Assembly: GCA_016866305.1 (NCBI GenBank)
Contig: VGMX01000005.1
Location: forward strand, 1 to 64,000
Length of the DNA stretch: 64,000 nt
Source of the DNA: Chlorobiota bacterium
Lineage (GTDB): Bacteria > Bacteroidota > Chlorobiia > Chlorobiales > Chlorobiaceae
Direction of reading: 5' to 3'
Part shown: in pieces, positions 54,266-61,490 of the stretch
Position numbering within the stretch: the stretch's first letter is position 1
Layout: each line of letters opens with the position of its first letter
Notes under the pieces: generated by a model
Told to the model about the DNA's origin: nothing
Seen by the model: only the letters and a program-made list of their open reading frames with translations
The model's database searches: none
Made by a program: the position numbers and the translations under genes

Positions 54266-56098
54266 TTACTCGGTGTTGTATACCATGTTCAGGGCGTTGT
54301 ACACCTTGTCAATCTCCTGAACGTACTTTTCGGTGATGGCTTTTCGTTTCAGCTTCAGGGTTGGCGTCATGTCTCCTTTCTCCACGCTGAACGCTTCGTC
54401 GATCAGGAGGAACTTGCGCACTTTCTCGTGCGTGGCGAGCTGCCGCGAGATGGTTCGCATGAGCTTTTCATAGATCTGATGAACAGCCTTGTTCTCGATC
54501 AGTTCCTTGTTGGAATTTGCCGCAATCGAGTTCTGGGCGGCAAACTCCGCGAGTTTGGCGAAATCGGGCACGATGACCGCGATGAGGAAGGGGCGTTTTT
54601 CACCGATCACGATCACCTGATCCACGAACGGGCTGTCCGCAATCAGGTTCTCGATCGGCTGGGGTGCGATGTTCTTGCCGCCGGAGGTGACGATGATGTG
54701 CTTTTTCCGGTCGGTGATCTTCAGGTAACCGTCCGGGTCGATCACTCCGATGTCCCCGCTGTAAAACCAGCCATCCCTGATCACCTCGTTTGTAGCGGTT
54801 TCGTCCTGCCAGTATCCCTTCATGATGTTGGGGCCTTTCAGCAGGATCTCGCCGTCTTCGGCAATCTTTACCTCAACGTTCGCCACTGCCGGGCCGACCG
54901 TGCCGAACTTGATCTTTTCAGGCCGGTTCACGTTGGTGACCGGTGAGGTTTCCGTCAGGCCGAACCCTTCGAGAATAGGGATCTCAAGTGCCTGGAAGAA
55001 TTCGCCTATTTTCTGCGGCAGGGCGGCACCGCCTGAAACGAAGTAGCGGAGTCTTCCGCCGAACTTCTTGCGGATCTTGTGGTACACCAGTTTGTCCGCC
55101 AGGTTATGCTGAACGGCAAGCGGCATCGATACCCGGTTTTTCTCGTTCATCTGCCGGTGGTACTCCTCGCCGGTTTTGATGGCCCAGTGAAAAATTTTCT
55201 TCTTCACGGCGCTTTCGTTGCCGATCTGCTTGAGCATGTTGGTCTTCATCCGGTCGAAAAGCCTCGGCACGGTGAAGATGATGGTGGGTTTGGCCTCGGT
55301 GATGTTGAGCGATATGGTTTCGATGCTTTCGGCCAGGTAGATGGAGGCTCCGCATGAAAAGAGCAGGTAATATCCTCCGGTACGCTCATAGGCGTGCGAG
55401 AGCGGCAGGAACGAAAGACTGCAGTCGGTTTCGTCGAGCCGGATGACCGTCGAGCAGGATTTCACGTTTTCGCAGAGGTTCCGGTGCGAGAGCATCACGC
55501 CTTTGGGCAGGCCTGTCGTGCCTGATGTGTAGATGATGGTTGCGGTATCTTCGGGCTCCACCTTGATGCCGTCGAGAATCCAGGGTTTGTCCTCGAGGAT
55601 TTTCTTGCCGGTCTTTTTTGCATGGTTAAGGTCGATCACGTCCTCGATGGGCTCTTCGAGCCTGTTCAGCACGATCACGAGGCCGAGATCCGGCAGGTTC
55701 TGCCAGATGGAGAGAATCTTTCCGAGCTGCAGCATGTTGGAAACCACGATGCCTTTGGCACTGCAGTTCTTCAGGATGTATTCGATCTGGTTCGGGGGCA
55801 GCGACGGATAGAGGGGCACGTCGATCGCGCCGATGGTGAGGATCGCCATGTCGGAAAGGTACCATCCGGGCCGGTTTTCGGAGAGAATGGCCACACGGTC
55901 CTGCGGCCCTATGCCGTTTTCCCTGAGAAAGGCCGAAAACGCATGCACATCCTTTTCCAGCGATTCGTAGGGGATCGGTTCATAGACGCCGTTGATTTTG
56001 CGGGCGATGGGGAATTTATCCTTTTTGCCCCGGTAATGGCTGAAAACGGAAGAGAAGAGCTCGGGCAGGGTATGAAATTCAGGATTGATGAGTCCCAT
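54266..56098 (-). CDS. Long-chain fatty acid-CoA ligase (AMP-dependent)
   Basis: Adenylate-forming enzyme of 610 residues of the FadD15/ACSL type. The P-loop motif [21 protein letters not shown] (about 188-208), [10 protein letters not shown] (about 379-388) and the hinge motif [25 protein letters not shown] (about 442-466) are intact. It activates long-chain fatty acids for lipid recycling. Monocistronic between the GNAT relic and the divergent sugar cluster. Confidence 0.92.
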
Positions 56099-56312
56099 AG
56101 AGCGCAGGTGTTTATCTTAAGGATGTGAGTATTGAAAAGAACAATACAGAAGCTCCCGTTCGGCGCGACGGAGCGGCGGAATTTCCGGCCCGGCGCCCGG
56201 TGGAGCAGGAAGGTTGCAAGCGATTAAAAAAATAATTAACAATACAATATTATCTTTGCAAAGAGCGTCTGGTACTTTATGGTATCTTTTATGTCTGTTT
56301 TTTACCGGTTTT

Positions 56313-57374
56313 ATGCAGTCAGCGAAAAAAAAGAGTGATAATCTGCCGGGATATGCCGGCCTTCTGTTTGGCCTTGTTCTCATCATCTACCTTTTCAGCC
56401 GGATTGACCTTGCCGGTGCAATCGGGAGGATCACTTCGATAGGGGTATCCTCGGTGCTCATTCTCCTGCCTTTCATGGTGCTGCATGTGGTCGAGACCTT
56501 CGCGTGGATAAAGGTTTTCCCGCCGGGTATTCCGGCAATTCCGTTTTTTCCCCTGCTGAGAATACAGCTTATCGCCGAAACCGTTTCCATGACGCTGCCG
56601 GCGGGAGTTGCGGTCGGCGAACCGCTCAGGCCCTATCTCTGCAAGCGTTTTATCAATCTGCCGGTACCGGAATCGGTGGCCAGCGTCGCGGTTCGCAAGC
56701 TTATGCTCGGCGCCGCACAGGGACTCTATACCCTCTTCGGGGCGCTTGCGGGCTACGGCTTCCTGCAGGCTGTTTCCAGCCGGATCATCGGGTTCGGGGG
56801 ACTCGGTATGATGATGGTTGTCAGCGGCCTGGCGGTTTTTCTGCTTTTCATGCTGTTTCTTCTGCTGCTCCTGAACGGAAAGGTTGCCCGGCAGCTCCAT
56901 ACGTTTCTGATGCTTGTGCCGTTCAGGAAGGTCAAGGCGTGGCTGCTGGAAAAGGAATCGGGTTTTCTCGACACCGACCACGCACTTGGCAGCTACAGGG
57001 GTTCGCCCTCCGGAGGACGCTTTCTGGCGATGAGTTACTACGTGCTTGCGTGGTTCATGCTTACGGCCGAGAGTTATATTATATTGCATCTTCTGGGGGT
57101 CGAGATCTCATTTTACCGGATTTTCGCAATCGACATCGCCCTTGCCATGCTCCGTTCGCTGTTTTTCTTCATTCCTTCCGGGCTTGGCGTGCAGGATCTC
57201 GGCTATCTGGTTTTTTTTCAGGCGATCGGCATGCATGATTTTTCGGCGACCGGTGCGGCATTTGTGCTGTTGAGGCGGTTCAAGGAGGTGCTCTGGTATG
57301 CTGCCGGTTACGGCGTCATGTTTCTGTCGGGGGTCCACCTCAAGGATGCGGAACGTATCAGCGGCAGTGAGTGA
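56313..57374 (+). CDS. Flippase-like membrane protein (UPF0104/LPG-synthase TM domain family)
   Basis: Protein of about 353 residues with eight or more helices. LPAGVAVGEPLRPYLCKR (about 93-110) and FFIPSGLGVQDLGYLVFF (about 285-302) are hallmarks of the lysylphosphatidylglycerol synthase TM region family, often found with polysaccharide or glycolipid genes. ATG at 56313 is preferred; a TTG at 56214 would add 33 residues. The stop overlaps the next start (TGATGA). Confidence 0.8.
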   Translation: MQSAKKKSDNLPGYAGLLFGLVLIIYLFSRIDLAGAIGRITSIGVSSVLILLPFMVLHVVETFAWIKVFPPGIPAIPFFPLLRIQLIAETVSMTLPAGVAVGEPLRPYLCKRFINLPVPESVASVAVRKLMLGAAQGLYTLFGALAGYGFLQAVSSRIIGFGGLGMMMVVSGLAVFLLFMLFLLLLLNGKVARQLHTFLMLVPFRKVKAWLLEKESGFLDTDHALGSYRGSPSGGRFLAMSYYVLAWFMLTAESYIILHLLGVEISFYRIFAIDIALAMLRSLFFFIPSGLGVQDLGYLVFFQAIGMHDFSATGAAFVLLRRFKEVLWYAAGYGVMFLSGVHLKDAERISGSE

Positions 57375-58330
57375 TGAAGAAGAAGATTCTCTTTATCTGC
57401 GGTTCGATGAACCAGACCACCCAGATGCACCAGATTTCGGGATGGCTGGGCGATTACGATCGGTATTTTTCCCCGTTTTTCAGCGACGGACTGCTTGGCC
57501 TGGCCAGCGGCATGGGGTTGCTCGAATTCACCATACTTGGCAAAAAACGCTCCAGCAGGGCGCTTCAGTACCTGCTCGACCATGACCTGCAGCTCGACAT
57601 TGGAGGTATGGCCCGCGACTACGATCTGGTGGTTACCTGTACCGACCTGATCGTGCCCAAAGAGATCCGCCGCAGGAAGATCGTACTGGTGCAGGAGGGA
57701 ATGACTGAACCGGAAACCGTGCTTTTCCATCTCGCACGGAACTTCCGCTGGGTGCCGCGCTGGGTGGCCGGTACGGCCACGACAGGCCTCAGCGATGCGT
57801 ACGAAAAGTTCTGCGTAGCCAGCGAAGGGTACCGTGACCTGTTCATCCGCAAAGGGGTCAACGCCGAAAAACTGGTGGTGACCAGCATACCGAATTTCGA
57901 CAATTGCGAGCGATACCTGCGGAATTCGTTCGAGCACCGGGACTTCGTGCTGGTCTGCACCTCCGACAACCGCGAAACCTTTATTTACGAGAATCGGCGC
58001 CGGAACATCGAGAAGTATCTCGATATGTCCGGGGGGCATCAGCTCATCTTCAAGCTTCATCCCAACGAGAACGCCCGGAGAGCCGTGCGCGAAATCAGTA
58101 CCCTGGCTCCCGGCAGCCTCGTGTTCACCGAAGGCAGGACCGAGGAGATGATCGCAAACTCCCGCATGCTGATCGCACAGTTTTCTTCCACCATTTTCGT
58201 GGGGTCGGCTCTCAACAAGACCGTGCACTGCAGCCTGACGCCCGAAGAGCTCAGGGCGCTCACACCGCTGCAGAACAAGTCGGCAGCCCGACGGATTGCC
58301 GATGTGTGCCGTAACGTTATCGACGGATAG
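57374..58330 (+). CDS. Unknown protein, GT-B / CDP-glycerol-transferase-like
   Basis: Protein of 318 residues. It starts [21 protein letters not shown], resembling the N-terminal Rossmann domain of GT-B transferases or sugar epimerases. A second domain contains FKLHPNEN (about 229-236) and [15 protein letters not shown] (about 270-284), reminiscent of the HPN...SS motifs of CDP-glycerol/teichoic-acid-type transferases. ATG overlaps the previous stop and the next gene follows by 8 bp, so it is part of the sugar cluster and may transfer the product. Assignment tentative. Confidence 0.6.
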
Positions 58331-58338
58331 GAGCCCCG

Positions 58339-59055
58339 ATGAAGACTGTTGCCATCATTCCCGCACGAGGCGGCTCGAAAGGGCTGCCGGGAAAAAACAT
58401 CCATCCCGTGGCCGGGCGTCCATTGCTTGCCTGGAGCGTGCAGCAGGCCCTCGATTCGGTACGCATCGACCGGGTGTTCGTTTCTACCGACGATCCCGCA
58501 ATTGCCTCGGTCGCAAGGTGCTGCGGAGCCGGGGTGATCGACCGTCCGGCAGGACTCTCCGGCGACAGGGCCACCTCGGAATCCGCATTGCTGCACGCCA
58601 TCGACCGGCTTGAATCGGAACATGGCATCGAGGTCGGCCTTGTGGTGTTCCTGCAGGCAACCTCTCCGCTGCGCAAGCCGGGGGATATCGACCGGGCAAT
58701 CGAGAGGTTCGAGGCCGAAGGTGCCGATTCGCTGATTTCCGTTACCCGCCTCGATGACCTCACGCTGTGGGAAAAGAAGGCTCACGGCTGGGAGAGCGTG
58801 AATTTCGACTGGCGTAACCGAGGCATGCGCCAGGATCGTGCCGAGCAGTATATCGAGAACGGCTCCATCTACCTCGTCACTCCCGAGGTGCTGAAAACTT
58901 CCGGAAACCGGATCGGACGGAGACTCGCCGTCTACGAAATGGAGTTCTGGCAGACGTGGGAGATTGACACGCTTGAAGAAATCGATTTAATTGAGTATTA
59001 CCTGTTCAAGAAAAACCTGGCGAGCCAGGAATCCGGTCCGGAGAACCCATCATAA
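58339..59055 (+). CDS. CMP-ulosonate synthetase (NeuA-type cytidylyltransferase)
   Basis: Protein of 238 residues. The CTP-binding loop [16 protein letters not shown] (about 6-21) and the downstream [15 protein letters not shown] (about 111-125) are typical of acylneuraminate cytidylyltransferases (NeuA/PseF/LegF branch) rather than KdsB. A C-terminal catalytic-metal region [11 protein letters not shown] is present. It should activate an eight- or nine-carbon acidic sugar as its CMP derivative. No NeuB-type synthase gene is nearby, so the substrate is likely derived from Kdo or made elsewhere. Confidence 0.85.
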
Positions 59056-59066
59056 TCCATCAGCCC

Positions 59067-60197
59067 ATGCAATTCTTTCTTTCCACCGATCTTCTGATCG
59101 GCGTCAATGAGGCCCTGAACCTGCAGGAGCAGGTACGGCAAGCAGGCATGAAGAAGCCCGGTATCATCTACGATGCAAATCTTTCCTCGAACCTTTATTT
59201 CCAGGATGTGCTCAAGGGGCTTGTCGGCCGTTTCGGTGACTGCGTGGTCTACAGCAACGAGTTCAGGGGAGAGCCCACCTACACCCATCTCGAAAATGTG
59301 GCGGAATTCTTTCGCAGGAACGTGCCGGACGGCATCGTGGCCATCGGGGGCGGCAGCACGCTCGATCTCGGCAAGGGGGTTGCGCTCCTGCTCACCAATC
59401 AGGTGCCCGCACTTTCCCTGAAGGGGTTTCCGGCAGACGTCCGCGATCCGGTGCCGCTCGTCACCGTGCCGTCGCTTCTCGGCAGCGGTGCGGAAATCAG
59501 CTTCAATGCGGTGTTCATCGACGAAGCCGAAGGACGCAAGCTCGGCATCAACAGCCGGAAGAACTTTCCCAGAAAAACCGTGATCGACCCCCAGCTCTCC
59601 ATGACCGCTCCGATGGAGAGCGTGATCGCCTCGGCAATGGACAGCCTTGTGCACTGCGTGGACAGCTTCGGTTCGCAGAAACACACCCCGCTGAGCAGGA
59701 TATTCGCCATCGAAGGGTTCCAGCGCACCTTCTACGCGCTCCAGCAGGGTCAGCTCGACCGCGCGGAGTCGCGCATCGACCTCGCCATCGGCAGCGTCTG
59801 CGGCACCACCGCGCTTATGAACTCCGGCGACGGACCCACCAACGGATTTGCCTACTATCTCGGTGTCAGGCACAAGGTGCCGCACGGGCTTGCCGGCGCC
59901 ATCTTCCTCAAGGAGGTGATGCGCTACAACTTCGACCACGGCTATGAAAAGTATGCCATGCTCAATCCCATGCGCTCCTCTCCCTCGCCGAAGGAGGCTA
60001 CCCAGGAACTGCTCGGGGAGCTGGACGAGCTGTACCGACAGCTTGACATACCGAACCTCGTGCCTTACGGCTACGGCAAGGGAAACGCCGCCGAACTTGC
60101 AAAAAACGTATCGGAAGCCCTCAAGGGATCGTTTGCCGGCAACCCCGTAGCCTTTACCGAGGATTCGGCACGTCAGGTGATCTACAACCTGACCTGA
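59067..60197 (+). CDS. Iron-type alcohol dehydrogenase, KdnB-like (Kdo 8-oxidase candidate)
   Basis: Group III alcohol dehydrogenase of 376 residues with the nucleotide-binding VAIGGGSTLDLGKG (about 91-104). Metal ligands visible are Asp192 and His196 (MDSLVHCVDSF) and His273 (VPHGLAG). The position of the His that is the third His ligand in E. coli FucO (His263) reads Asn259 here. The MDxxxHCVxS block and the neighbouring aminotransferase and cytidylyltransferase genes fit KdnB, which oxidises C8 of Kdo. Substrate not proven. Confidence 0.75.
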   Translation: MQFFLSTDLLIGVNEALNLQEQVRQAGMKKPGIIYDANLSSNLYFQDVLKGLVGRFGDCVVYSNEFRGEPTYTHLENVAEFFRRNVPDGIVAIGGGSTLDLGKGVALLLTNQVPALSLKGFPADVRDPVPLVTVPSLLGSGAEISFNAVFIDEAEGRKLGINSRKNFPRKTVIDPQLSMTAPMESVIASAMDSLVHCVDSFGSQKHTPLSRIFAIEGFQRTFYALQQGQLDRAESRIDLAIGSVCGTTALMNSGDGPTNGFAYYLGVRHKVPHGLAGAIFLKEVMRYNFDHGYEKYAMLNPMRSSPSPKEATQELLGELDELYRQLDIPNLVPYGYGKGNAAELAKNVSEALKGSFAGNPVAFTEDSARQVIYNLT

Positions 60198-60332
60198 CGG
60201 CAATCGGGACCATGACGAAAATTGGAGTGTATAGACAGGTTCACCGGGATTTCCAATATCCTGCAGCGATGTTATCCCACTGCAGAACAGATACAGGCAG
60301 GTTTCCTAACGTAACTCACTAAAACGAAAAAA

Positions 60333-61490
60333 ATGGCAGGAGCAGAACTTATAGGCCGCGAAGAGCTGGCAGAAATACAGGAGCTTTTCAGTCACGACAA
60401 GGTGAACCTTTACCGCTATGGAGGGGGGAACTACAAGGCTCGGGAGTTCGAGGAGCGGTTCGCCCGGTACATGGGGGTAAAGTACGCGCACGCGGTTTCC
60501 TCCGGTACGGCGGCCATTCACTGCGCGCTTGCCGGCGCGGGTATCGGTCCCGGTGACGAGGTGATCACCACCGCCTGGACCTTCATCGCCCCGGTCGAGG
60601 CCATCAGCGCACTCGGCGCAGTGCCGGTACCGGTGGAGATTGACGAAACCTACCACCTCGACCCGCTGGAGGTGGAAAAGGCCATCACTCCCTCCACGAA
60701 AGCCGTGGTAGCCATTCCCATGTGGGCCCCGCCTCAAATGGACGAACTGGCGGCGATCTGCGAGCGCCGCAACATCATGCTCATCGAGGACGCCGCCCAG
60801 GCGCTGGGAGCCTCCTACAAGGGTCGCAAGCTTGGCACCATCGGCCGGGTGGGTTCCTTCTCCTTCGACGCGGGCAAGACCCTGCACACCGGAGAGGGCG
60901 GCATCATCGTCACCAACGACCGGGAGGTGTACGATCGTGCAGCCGAGTTCTCCGACCACGGCCACATGCACCGGGAGGGGCTGCCGCGCGGCAAGGACCC
61001 GCGCAGGGCCAAAGGGCTCAATCTGCGCCTCAGCGAGGTGACAGCGGCCATAGGCCTGGCACAGCTCGGCAAGATCGACCTGATTCTCTCGCGCACGAAG
61101 GAGAACAAGAGGAAAATCAAGGAGGCCATACGCCATCTTGGCAACATCACCCTCAGGCCTTTTTCGGACGAGGAGGGCTCGCAGGGCGACACGATGATCT
61201 TCCGCGTGCGCGACCGCGAGGCGGCCCTGCAGTTCGAAGCGCACCTCATGGAACGGGGCTTCGGCACAAAAATCCTGCCGGAAGCGCTCGACTGGCACTT
61301 CGCCGGCGTATGGAACCACCTGCTCCCCGAGTTCGATCGCTATCGTGACGCCGATCTCGAAACGCTCTGGCCGAGAACCGGCGCCATGCTGCGCAGCAGC
61401 ATCTGCCTGAACATCCCGGTGCTGATGGACGATGCCACCATCGGGCGGCTCATCGAGGCAATCATCACCGGATCGGAGAGGATCGGGTAG
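60333..61490 (+). CDS. DegT-family aminotransferase, KdnA-like
   Basis: PLP sugar aminotransferase of 385 residues. The PLP lysine is in FSFDAGKTLHTGEGG (about 177-191), with VSSGTAAIHCAL (about 55-66) and EDAAQALGA. The block SDHGHMHREGLPRGKDPRRAKGLN-type sequence (about 208-231) resembles KdnA, which aminates C8 of the oxidised Kdo. It is the last gene of the cluster, 135 bp after the dehydrogenase and before a terminator. Confidence 0.8.
   Translation: MAGAELIGREELAEIQELFSHDKVNLYRYGGGNYKAREFEERFARYMGVKYAHAVSSGTAAIHCALAGAGIGPGDEVITTAWTFIAPVEAISALGAVPVPVEIDETYHLDPLEVEKAITPSTKAVVAIPMWAPPQMDELAAICERRNIMLIEDAAQALGASYKGRKLGTIGRVGSFSFDAGKTLHTGEGGIIVTNDREVYDRAAEFSDHGHMHREGLPRGKDPRRAKGLNLRLSEVTAAIGLAQLGKIDLILSRTKENKRKIKEAIRHLGNITLRPFSDEEGSQGDTMIFRVRDREAALQFEAHLMERGFGTKILPEALDWHFAGVWNHLLPEFDRYRDADLETLWPRTGAMLRSSICLNIPVLMDDATIGRLIEAIITGSERIG

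Follow-up and report, generated by a model that had tools for sequence, protein, structure and literature searches.

Positions 56,313 to 61,490 of a 64,000-nucleotide stretch of contig VGMX01000005.1 (here called the window), from a Chlorobiota bacterium of the family Chlorobiaceae (assembly GCA_016866305.1), hold five adjacent genes that probably form the terminal part of a pathway for a cytidine monophosphate (CMP)-activated nonulosonate, a sialic-acid-like sugar that would be aminated at its terminal carbon, transferred to an acceptor, and flipped across the membrane. In order, the genes encode a putative flippase (FLIP), a putative transferase with a glycosyltransferase B (GT-B) fold (GTx), a CMP-ulosonate synthetase (CMPS), a group III iron-containing alcohol dehydrogenase (ADH), and a DegT-fold aminotransferase (DEGT). 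An initial annotation had read them as a pathway resembling the one that makes 8-amino-3,8-dideoxy-manno-octulosonate (Kdo8N) from 3-deoxy-manno-octulosonate (Kdo) in Shewanella oneidensis. Its broader idea, that an ulosonate is oxidized, aminated, and CMP-activated, is retained here, with DEGT falling in the superclade of KdnA; Kdo itself has become a less likely substrate because ADH and CMPS lie outside the KdnB and KdsB groups, because separate KdsA-KdsC and KdsB genes for Kdo are present in the genome, and because comparisons among genomes tie the cluster to NeuB.

The five-gene cluster is conserved in essentially every member of the Chlorobiaceae. The order FLIP–GTx–CMPS–ADH–DEGT is complete in each of the first 10 Chlorobiaceae loci taken and in 66 of the 76 covered by a contig scan, the remaining 10 being without end-of-order genes only; such retention argues that the locus is not a product of chance. 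Across a phylum-wide draw of 297 genomes (65 of them Chlorobiaceae), GTx and NeuB are present in all 65 Chlorobiaceae, and DEGT is absent from just two of these (G110 and G153), probably for reasons of assembly, since GTx lies near a contig end in both. Over the whole draw, GTx occurs in 110 genomes, every one of which also contains the NeuB clade; conversely, the NeuB clade occurs in 112 genomes, 110 of them with GTx, and the two exceptions (G128 and G219) are both many-contig assemblies. This NeuB-plus-GTx core spans the 65 Chlorobiaceae and 45 genomes of other families, although, the genomes being related, the counts do not represent independent events.

The genome to which the window belongs, examined by family and protein searches, contains two sets of ulosonate genes. 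One is the set for Kdo: KdsA (377 bits) with an adjoining KdsC-family phosphatase, and KdsB (307 bits). The other includes a single NeuB-family synthase on another contig (251 bits, cut-off 22.1; 292 amino acids [aa], without a SAF domain; top Protein Data Bank [PDB] match SpsE, 1vli), such that the earlier statement that no NeuB lies nearby is true locally but not of the genome. Directly preceding this NeuB gene is a second KdsC-family phosphatase of the haloacid dehalogenase type, whose best NCBIfam family is the Bacteroides phosphatase for the 9-phosphate of 2-keto-3-deoxynononate (Kdn), namely NF058599 (144.5 bits, under the cut-off of 180). As the initial annotation had proposed, CMPS belongs to the NeuA branch: its best PDB match is PpNeuA (127 bits, versus at most 43 bits for KdsB), and in the tree it joins the NeuA-type enzymes, separate from KdsB and from SpsF-like proteins (96/98). 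Because KdsB and CMPS are the only CTP_transf_3 proteins of the genome over the cut-off, the simplest pairing would be KdsA with KdsB and NeuB with CMPS. We regard a NeuB-type nonulosonate as the substrate with considerable confidence.

A motif scan for ADH over GTDB species genomes returns only three loci outside the Chlorobiaceae, and DegT, NeuA, and NeuB are present in all three. In the gammaproteobacterium SCGC AAA168-P09 (L213), homologues run in the order CMPS (49% identity), ADH (47%), DEGT (63%), directly followed by a 748-aa fusion protein whose domains are CBS, NeuB, and xylose-isomerase-like. A Methanomicrobiales archaeon (L148) has the order ADH–DEGT–NeuA–NeuB (with SAF domain)–NeuC. 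The third locus (L147, the same record as L042), from UBA2364 of the Bacteroidota, comprises NeuB, NeuC, NeuD, a nucleoside triphosphate transferase, ADH, DEGT, NeuA, and LegC, with a polysialyltransferase-like protein at the edge of the cluster (L042:1131-2147; PF07388, 30.5 bits).

Among characterized enzymes, DEGT is closest to KdnA, its best PDB match (5k8b, 274 bits; next best, 165 bits). In the tree, DEGT of the Chlorobiaceae joins the L213 protein with full support (100/100) and, together with the proteins of L148 and L042, forms a sister clade (93/92) to the KdnA clade (98/97); this KdnA superclade is separated from LegC and other DegT enzymes at 100/100, and two trees agree. DEGT shares with KdnA proteins thirteen positions that no other DegT row used has, among them D208, H209, H211, R219, G220, E235, W327, and H329. 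Assignment of DEGT as LegC or PseC was considered and rejected (180 of 420 and 169 of 423.5 bits, respectively, against the curated cut-offs).

ADH scores 63.7 bits against KdnB (5k8c), ranked behind 24 other sequences, the best of which is a methanol dehydrogenase (105.3 bits), and it forms a clade with the ADHs of L213, L148, and L042 (98/96), the KdnB clade standing apart on a long branch (100/100). A histidine of the metal site, which we take to be a ligand from the site of lactaldehyde reductase, is replaced by asparagine in the Chlorobiaceae and L213 (GPTNGFAYY) and by glycine in L042 and L148, whereas KdnB keeps it. The initial annotation had noted KdnB- and KdnA-like blocks in the two enzymes and had looked to phylogeny to place them: the likeness holds for DEGT, which stands in the KdnA superclade and apart from LegC though outside the KdnA clade proper, but not for ADH, which is separate from KdnB. 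Genuine pairs of KdnA- and KdnB-type genes do exist in other families of the phylum (L043, L044, L045, L048, and L049), where they form clades separate from DEGT and ADH; the L045 ADH scores 449 bits against KdnB 5k8c, and L043 has a KdsB-like gene between its KdnA- and KdnB-type genes. Their presence suggests that Kdo8N occurs far outside Shewanella.

Other families of the phylum carry a GTx that is 43 to 59% identical, in an operon with NeuB and a cytidylyltransferase and often with FLIP. These uncharacterized operons (L094-L100, L104, L105, L138-L140, and L142-L145) contain an SpsF-like cytidylyltransferase, a two-part transketolase, a class III aminotransferase, a short-chain dehydrogenase/reductase (SDR), a KdsC-like phosphatase, NeuB, and an OlsE-like fatty acid hydroxylase. 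The genes occupy two places in G005, a genome of the sister family: FLIP (40% identical) adjoins GTx (59%), the SpsF-like gene, transketolase, and aminotransferase, plus an AMP-binding gene, in one, and the order fatty acid hydroxylase–NeuB–phosphatase–SDR is found in the other. The Chlorobiaceae retain FLIP, GTx, NeuB, and the phosphatase, and CMPS–ADH–DEGT stands where their relatives have the other module; judging from these gene contents, it appears to have replaced an ancestral SpsF-like/transketolase/class III aminotransferase/SDR module by gene transfer. Since both versions pair a dehydrogenase with an aminotransferase, an amino sugar is supported as the product. The fatty acid hydroxylase of the relatives was rejected as belonging to the pathway in Chlorobium: the genome has a single FA_hydroxylase, which is 25 to 31% identical and not evidently an orthologue.

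GTx matches no Pfam or NCBIfam family. In the PDB, a profile built from 14 of its relatives matches only a TagF-like polymerase, and that weakly, and several of the relatives weakly match Pfam models for cytidine diphosphate-glycerol transferases or for epimerases. An AlphaFold2 model based on the 14 relatives (predicted local distance difference test score, 87.6) retrieves GT-B proteins in Foldseek: UDP-N-acetylglucosamine (UDP-GlcNAc) 2-epimerases first, followed by a CMP-bound capsule polymerase, TagF, and a polysialyltransferase. Two motifs, Q108-E109-G110 and H230-P231, are invariant in 14 proteins, and their EG-to-HP spacing is 121 residues, versus 125 in the polysialyltransferase of Neisseria meningitidis. 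In that enzyme, the equivalent residues E153-G154 and H278-P279 contribute to activity, with the HP motif serving in the binding of CMP-N-acetylneuraminic acid (PMC2169525). Model and motifs make GTx a putative GT-B-fold CMP-nonulosonate transferase with sialyltransferase-like motifs.

From these associations we infer a substrate, an order of steps, a C9 position for the amine, an acceptor, and a role for the flippase, as follows. The NeuB-type synthase would condense a hexose 6-phosphate with phosphoenolpyruvate, and the adjoining KdsC-family phosphatase would remove the 9-phosphate; ADH would then oxidize the exposed terminal C9 hydroxyl to an aldehyde, which DEGT would aminate in a counterpart of the KdnA reaction on C8 of Kdo (net, CH2OH to CH2NH2). 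CMPS would make the CMP-sugar, GTx would transfer the sugar, probably onto a lipid or a lipid-linked glycan, and FLIP would carry the product across the inner membrane. Within this scheme, we lean only slightly toward a terminal position for the amine, and a lipid as the acceptor is a close call that falls just short of being favored. Taken to its full extent, the scheme would have the Chlorobiaceae make a 9-amino-9-deoxy-nonulosonate on a membrane lipid, family-wide and probably as a core trait, with ADH and DEGT as the nine-carbon counterpart of KdnB and KdnA and the operons of the relatives as an older, independent route by which other families of the phylum arrive at a similar amino-nonulosonate lipid; we offer this larger picture tentatively, as a whole that is rather doubtful.

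Several observations weigh against the proposed pathway. In the Chlorobiaceae, NeuB and its phosphatase sit outside the five-gene cluster, and the NeuB-phosphatase pair also occurs in relatives without ADH and DEGT, so that the link of these two enzymes with NeuB depends on the three outsider loci and on gene content. One of those loci, L042, also has a strong LegC (470 bits); C9 of legionaminic acid is a methyl group, and amination at C9 would not apply there if legionaminic acid is what L042 makes. The replaced histidine makes the activity of ADH uncertain, and the fine placement of sequences is unsure in trees that are small and have several long end branches. As for GTx, its top structural matches are the UDP-GlcNAc 2-epimerases, which are also GT-B proteins, and its D/E-D/E-G motif begins with Q in place of D or E, although the HP motif is present.

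The same L042 locus, where a LegC-like second aminotransferase lies beside ADH and DEGT, lends something to a reading in which the pathway is NeuB-type but ADH and DEGT act, in the manner of LegC or PseC, on an earlier precursor (such as C6 of a hexose prior to condensation) or on an internal carbon. A further point in its favor is that internal ketones of nucleotide sugars are the usual targets of DegT enzymes. We nevertheless consider it unlikely: DEGT falls far short of the cut-offs for LegC and for PseC and clusters with KdnA, an aminotransferase of terminal aldehydes, and a NeuB coupled to a phosphatase would leave the C9 hydroxyl free, just as KdsC frees the C8 hydroxyl of Kdo. Still less probable, and to our minds very much so, is that CMPS, GTx, and FLIP handle an ordinary nonulosonate (Kdn or similar) with ADH and DEGT as unrelated passengers. 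The core of NeuB, phosphatase, and GTx does occur in other families without the two enzymes, but CMPS, ADH, and DEGT travel together in a gammaproteobacterium as well as in the Chlorobiaceae, and the operons that have neither ADH nor DEGT have an SDR and a class III aminotransferase, suggesting that an amination step belongs to the pathway. The original Kdo8N-like proposal, under which ADH and DEGT act on C8 of Kdo, CMPS activates 8-amino-Kdo, and GTx adds it to lipopolysaccharide, draws on KdnA being the nearest solved structure to DEGT, on the 13 shared KdnA-specific positions, and on the presence of KdsA, KdsC, and KdsB in the genome. Kdo has also been reported, by 1,2-diamino-4,5-methylenedioxybenzene high-performance liquid chromatography, in the lipooligosaccharide of Chlorobaculum tepidum (PMC12285230), from which it follows that Kdo itself is not replaced. 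The proposal is nonetheless improbable, falling between the two preceding alternatives: ADH is not KdnB, CMPS is not KdsB, NeuB is present in all three outsider loci, GTx follows NeuB over the 297 genomes, and the genuine KdnA/KdnB pairs of the phylum belong to separate clades.

As a sister enzyme pair, ADH and DEGT track nonulosonate synthases in bacteria and an archaeon, and they predict a class of sugar that is not found in the literature searched; that literature (on Kdo8N and KdnA, on nonulosonic acids in Chlorobi, and on 9-amino nonulosonates) yielded nothing on this cluster. With the NeuB-plus-GTx core so widespread, a component of the surface or lipids of green sulfur bacteria that has no assigned genes becomes directly testable. 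Chlorobium limicola has an unexplained aminolipid, an aminoglycosphingolipid (Jensen et al. 1991, cited in PMC11762602), to which the cluster could provide a genetic entry. No serine palmitoyltransferase was found in the genome: of its aminotransferase class I/II matches, the two resembling BioF/Kbl/SPT-type acyltransferases were scanned, and they prove to be BioF-like and CqsA-like, neither reaching the serine palmitoyltransferase cut-offs. A sphingolipid acceptor was rejected on these candidates, which leaves the link to the 1991 lipid as a lead only. The CqsA-like synthase (G000:C6:77265-78272, L115; NF005526, 623 bits, cut-off 428) adjoins an open reading frame (ORF) that is similar to CqsS at its start, so that this green sulfur bacterium may have a quorum-sensing pair of the alpha-hydroxyketone type.

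At the level of gene models, the five plus-strand ORFs are separated by gaps of −4, 8, 11, and 135 bases, confirming the close same-strand spacing described initially, and their families are LPG_synthase_TM/HpnL-like, none for GTx, CTP_transf_3 of the NeuA/PseF branch, group III iron-containing ADH, and DegT (Table 1). FLIP has an alternative TTG start at 56214. Where the window has a 135-base gap between ADH and DEGT (60198-60332), nine other loci of the Chlorobiaceae have about 15 to 84 bases, and L032, a close relative, has about 284; in L032, an opposite-strand 147-aa ORF also lies between GTx and FLIP (L032:8599-9042). Upstream, the AMP-binding gene serves as a synteny anchor: by visual comparison, a clearly similar gene lies upstream of FLIP–GTx in L131 of G005.

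Table 1. Genes of the cluster and its upstream flank, in window coordinates
Gene	Product	Position	Strand	Remarks
AMP-binding	Acyl-CoA ligase-like flanking gene	54266-56098	-	PF00501, 274 bits; not assigned to pathway
FLIP	LPG_synthase_TM/HpnL-like membrane protein, putative flippase	56313-57374	+	PF03706, 76 bits (cut-off 33.4)
GTx	GT-B-fold putative CMP-nonulosonate transferase	57371-58330	+	4-base overlap with FLIP; no Pfam/NCBIfam family
CMPS	NeuA/PseF-branch CMP-ulosonate synthetase	58339-59055	+	PF02348 (CTP_transf_3)
ADH	Group III iron-containing alcohol dehydrogenase, putative nonulosonate terminal oxidase	59067-60197	+	PF00465
DEGT	DegT-fold pyridoxal phosphate aminotransferase, KdnA superclade, putative terminal aminotransferase	60333-61490	+	Best PDB match KdnA

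Parts of the proposed pathway have counterparts in several known systems. With the bacterial sialyltransferases of GT38, GT52, and GT80 (PMC2169525), GTx has in common a GT-B fold and near-identically spaced EG and HP motifs; unlike them, it has no detectable family membership, begins its first motif with Q, and finds its closest folds in other GT-B proteins. The sps pathway for legionaminic acid in Bacillus subtilis, with SpsC, SpsE, and SpsF (PMC7439481), is alike in having a NeuB-family synthase and a DegT enzyme, the cytidylyltransferase in the operons of the relatives being SpsF-like. It differs in that DEGT is not LegC-like by score and belongs to the KdnA superclade, and in that the cluster is without enzymes for legionaminic precursors. 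The phosphatase-coupled Kdn pathway of Bacteroides consists of a Kdn-9-phosphate synthase, a Kdn-9-phosphatase, and a CMP-Kdn synthetase. Here, the resemblance lies in a NeuB-family synthase adjoining a KdsC-like phosphatase with NF058599 as its best family, and in a NeuA-type synthetase, whereas the Chlorobium phosphatase falls under the cut-off, an ADH, an aminotransferase, GTx, and FLIP are additional, and the genes are divided between two loci. Kdo8N in Shewanella is a known case of an ulosonate aminated at its terminal carbon. The S. oneidensis system (KdnB, KdnA, and KdsB) differs from the cluster in the ADH, which here belongs to another clade of iron-containing ADHs and has an altered metal site, in the sister-clade position of DEGT, in the NeuA-type cytidylyltransferase, and in the genomic partner, which is NeuB rather than KdsA. 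It agrees in having a neighboring iron-containing ADH, an aminotransferase of the KdnA superclade (DEGT carrying KdnA-specific motifs), and a CMP-synthetase, and the steps proposed here would run parallel to those of KdsA, KdsC, KdnB, KdnA, KdsB, and the Kdo transferase of Shewanella.

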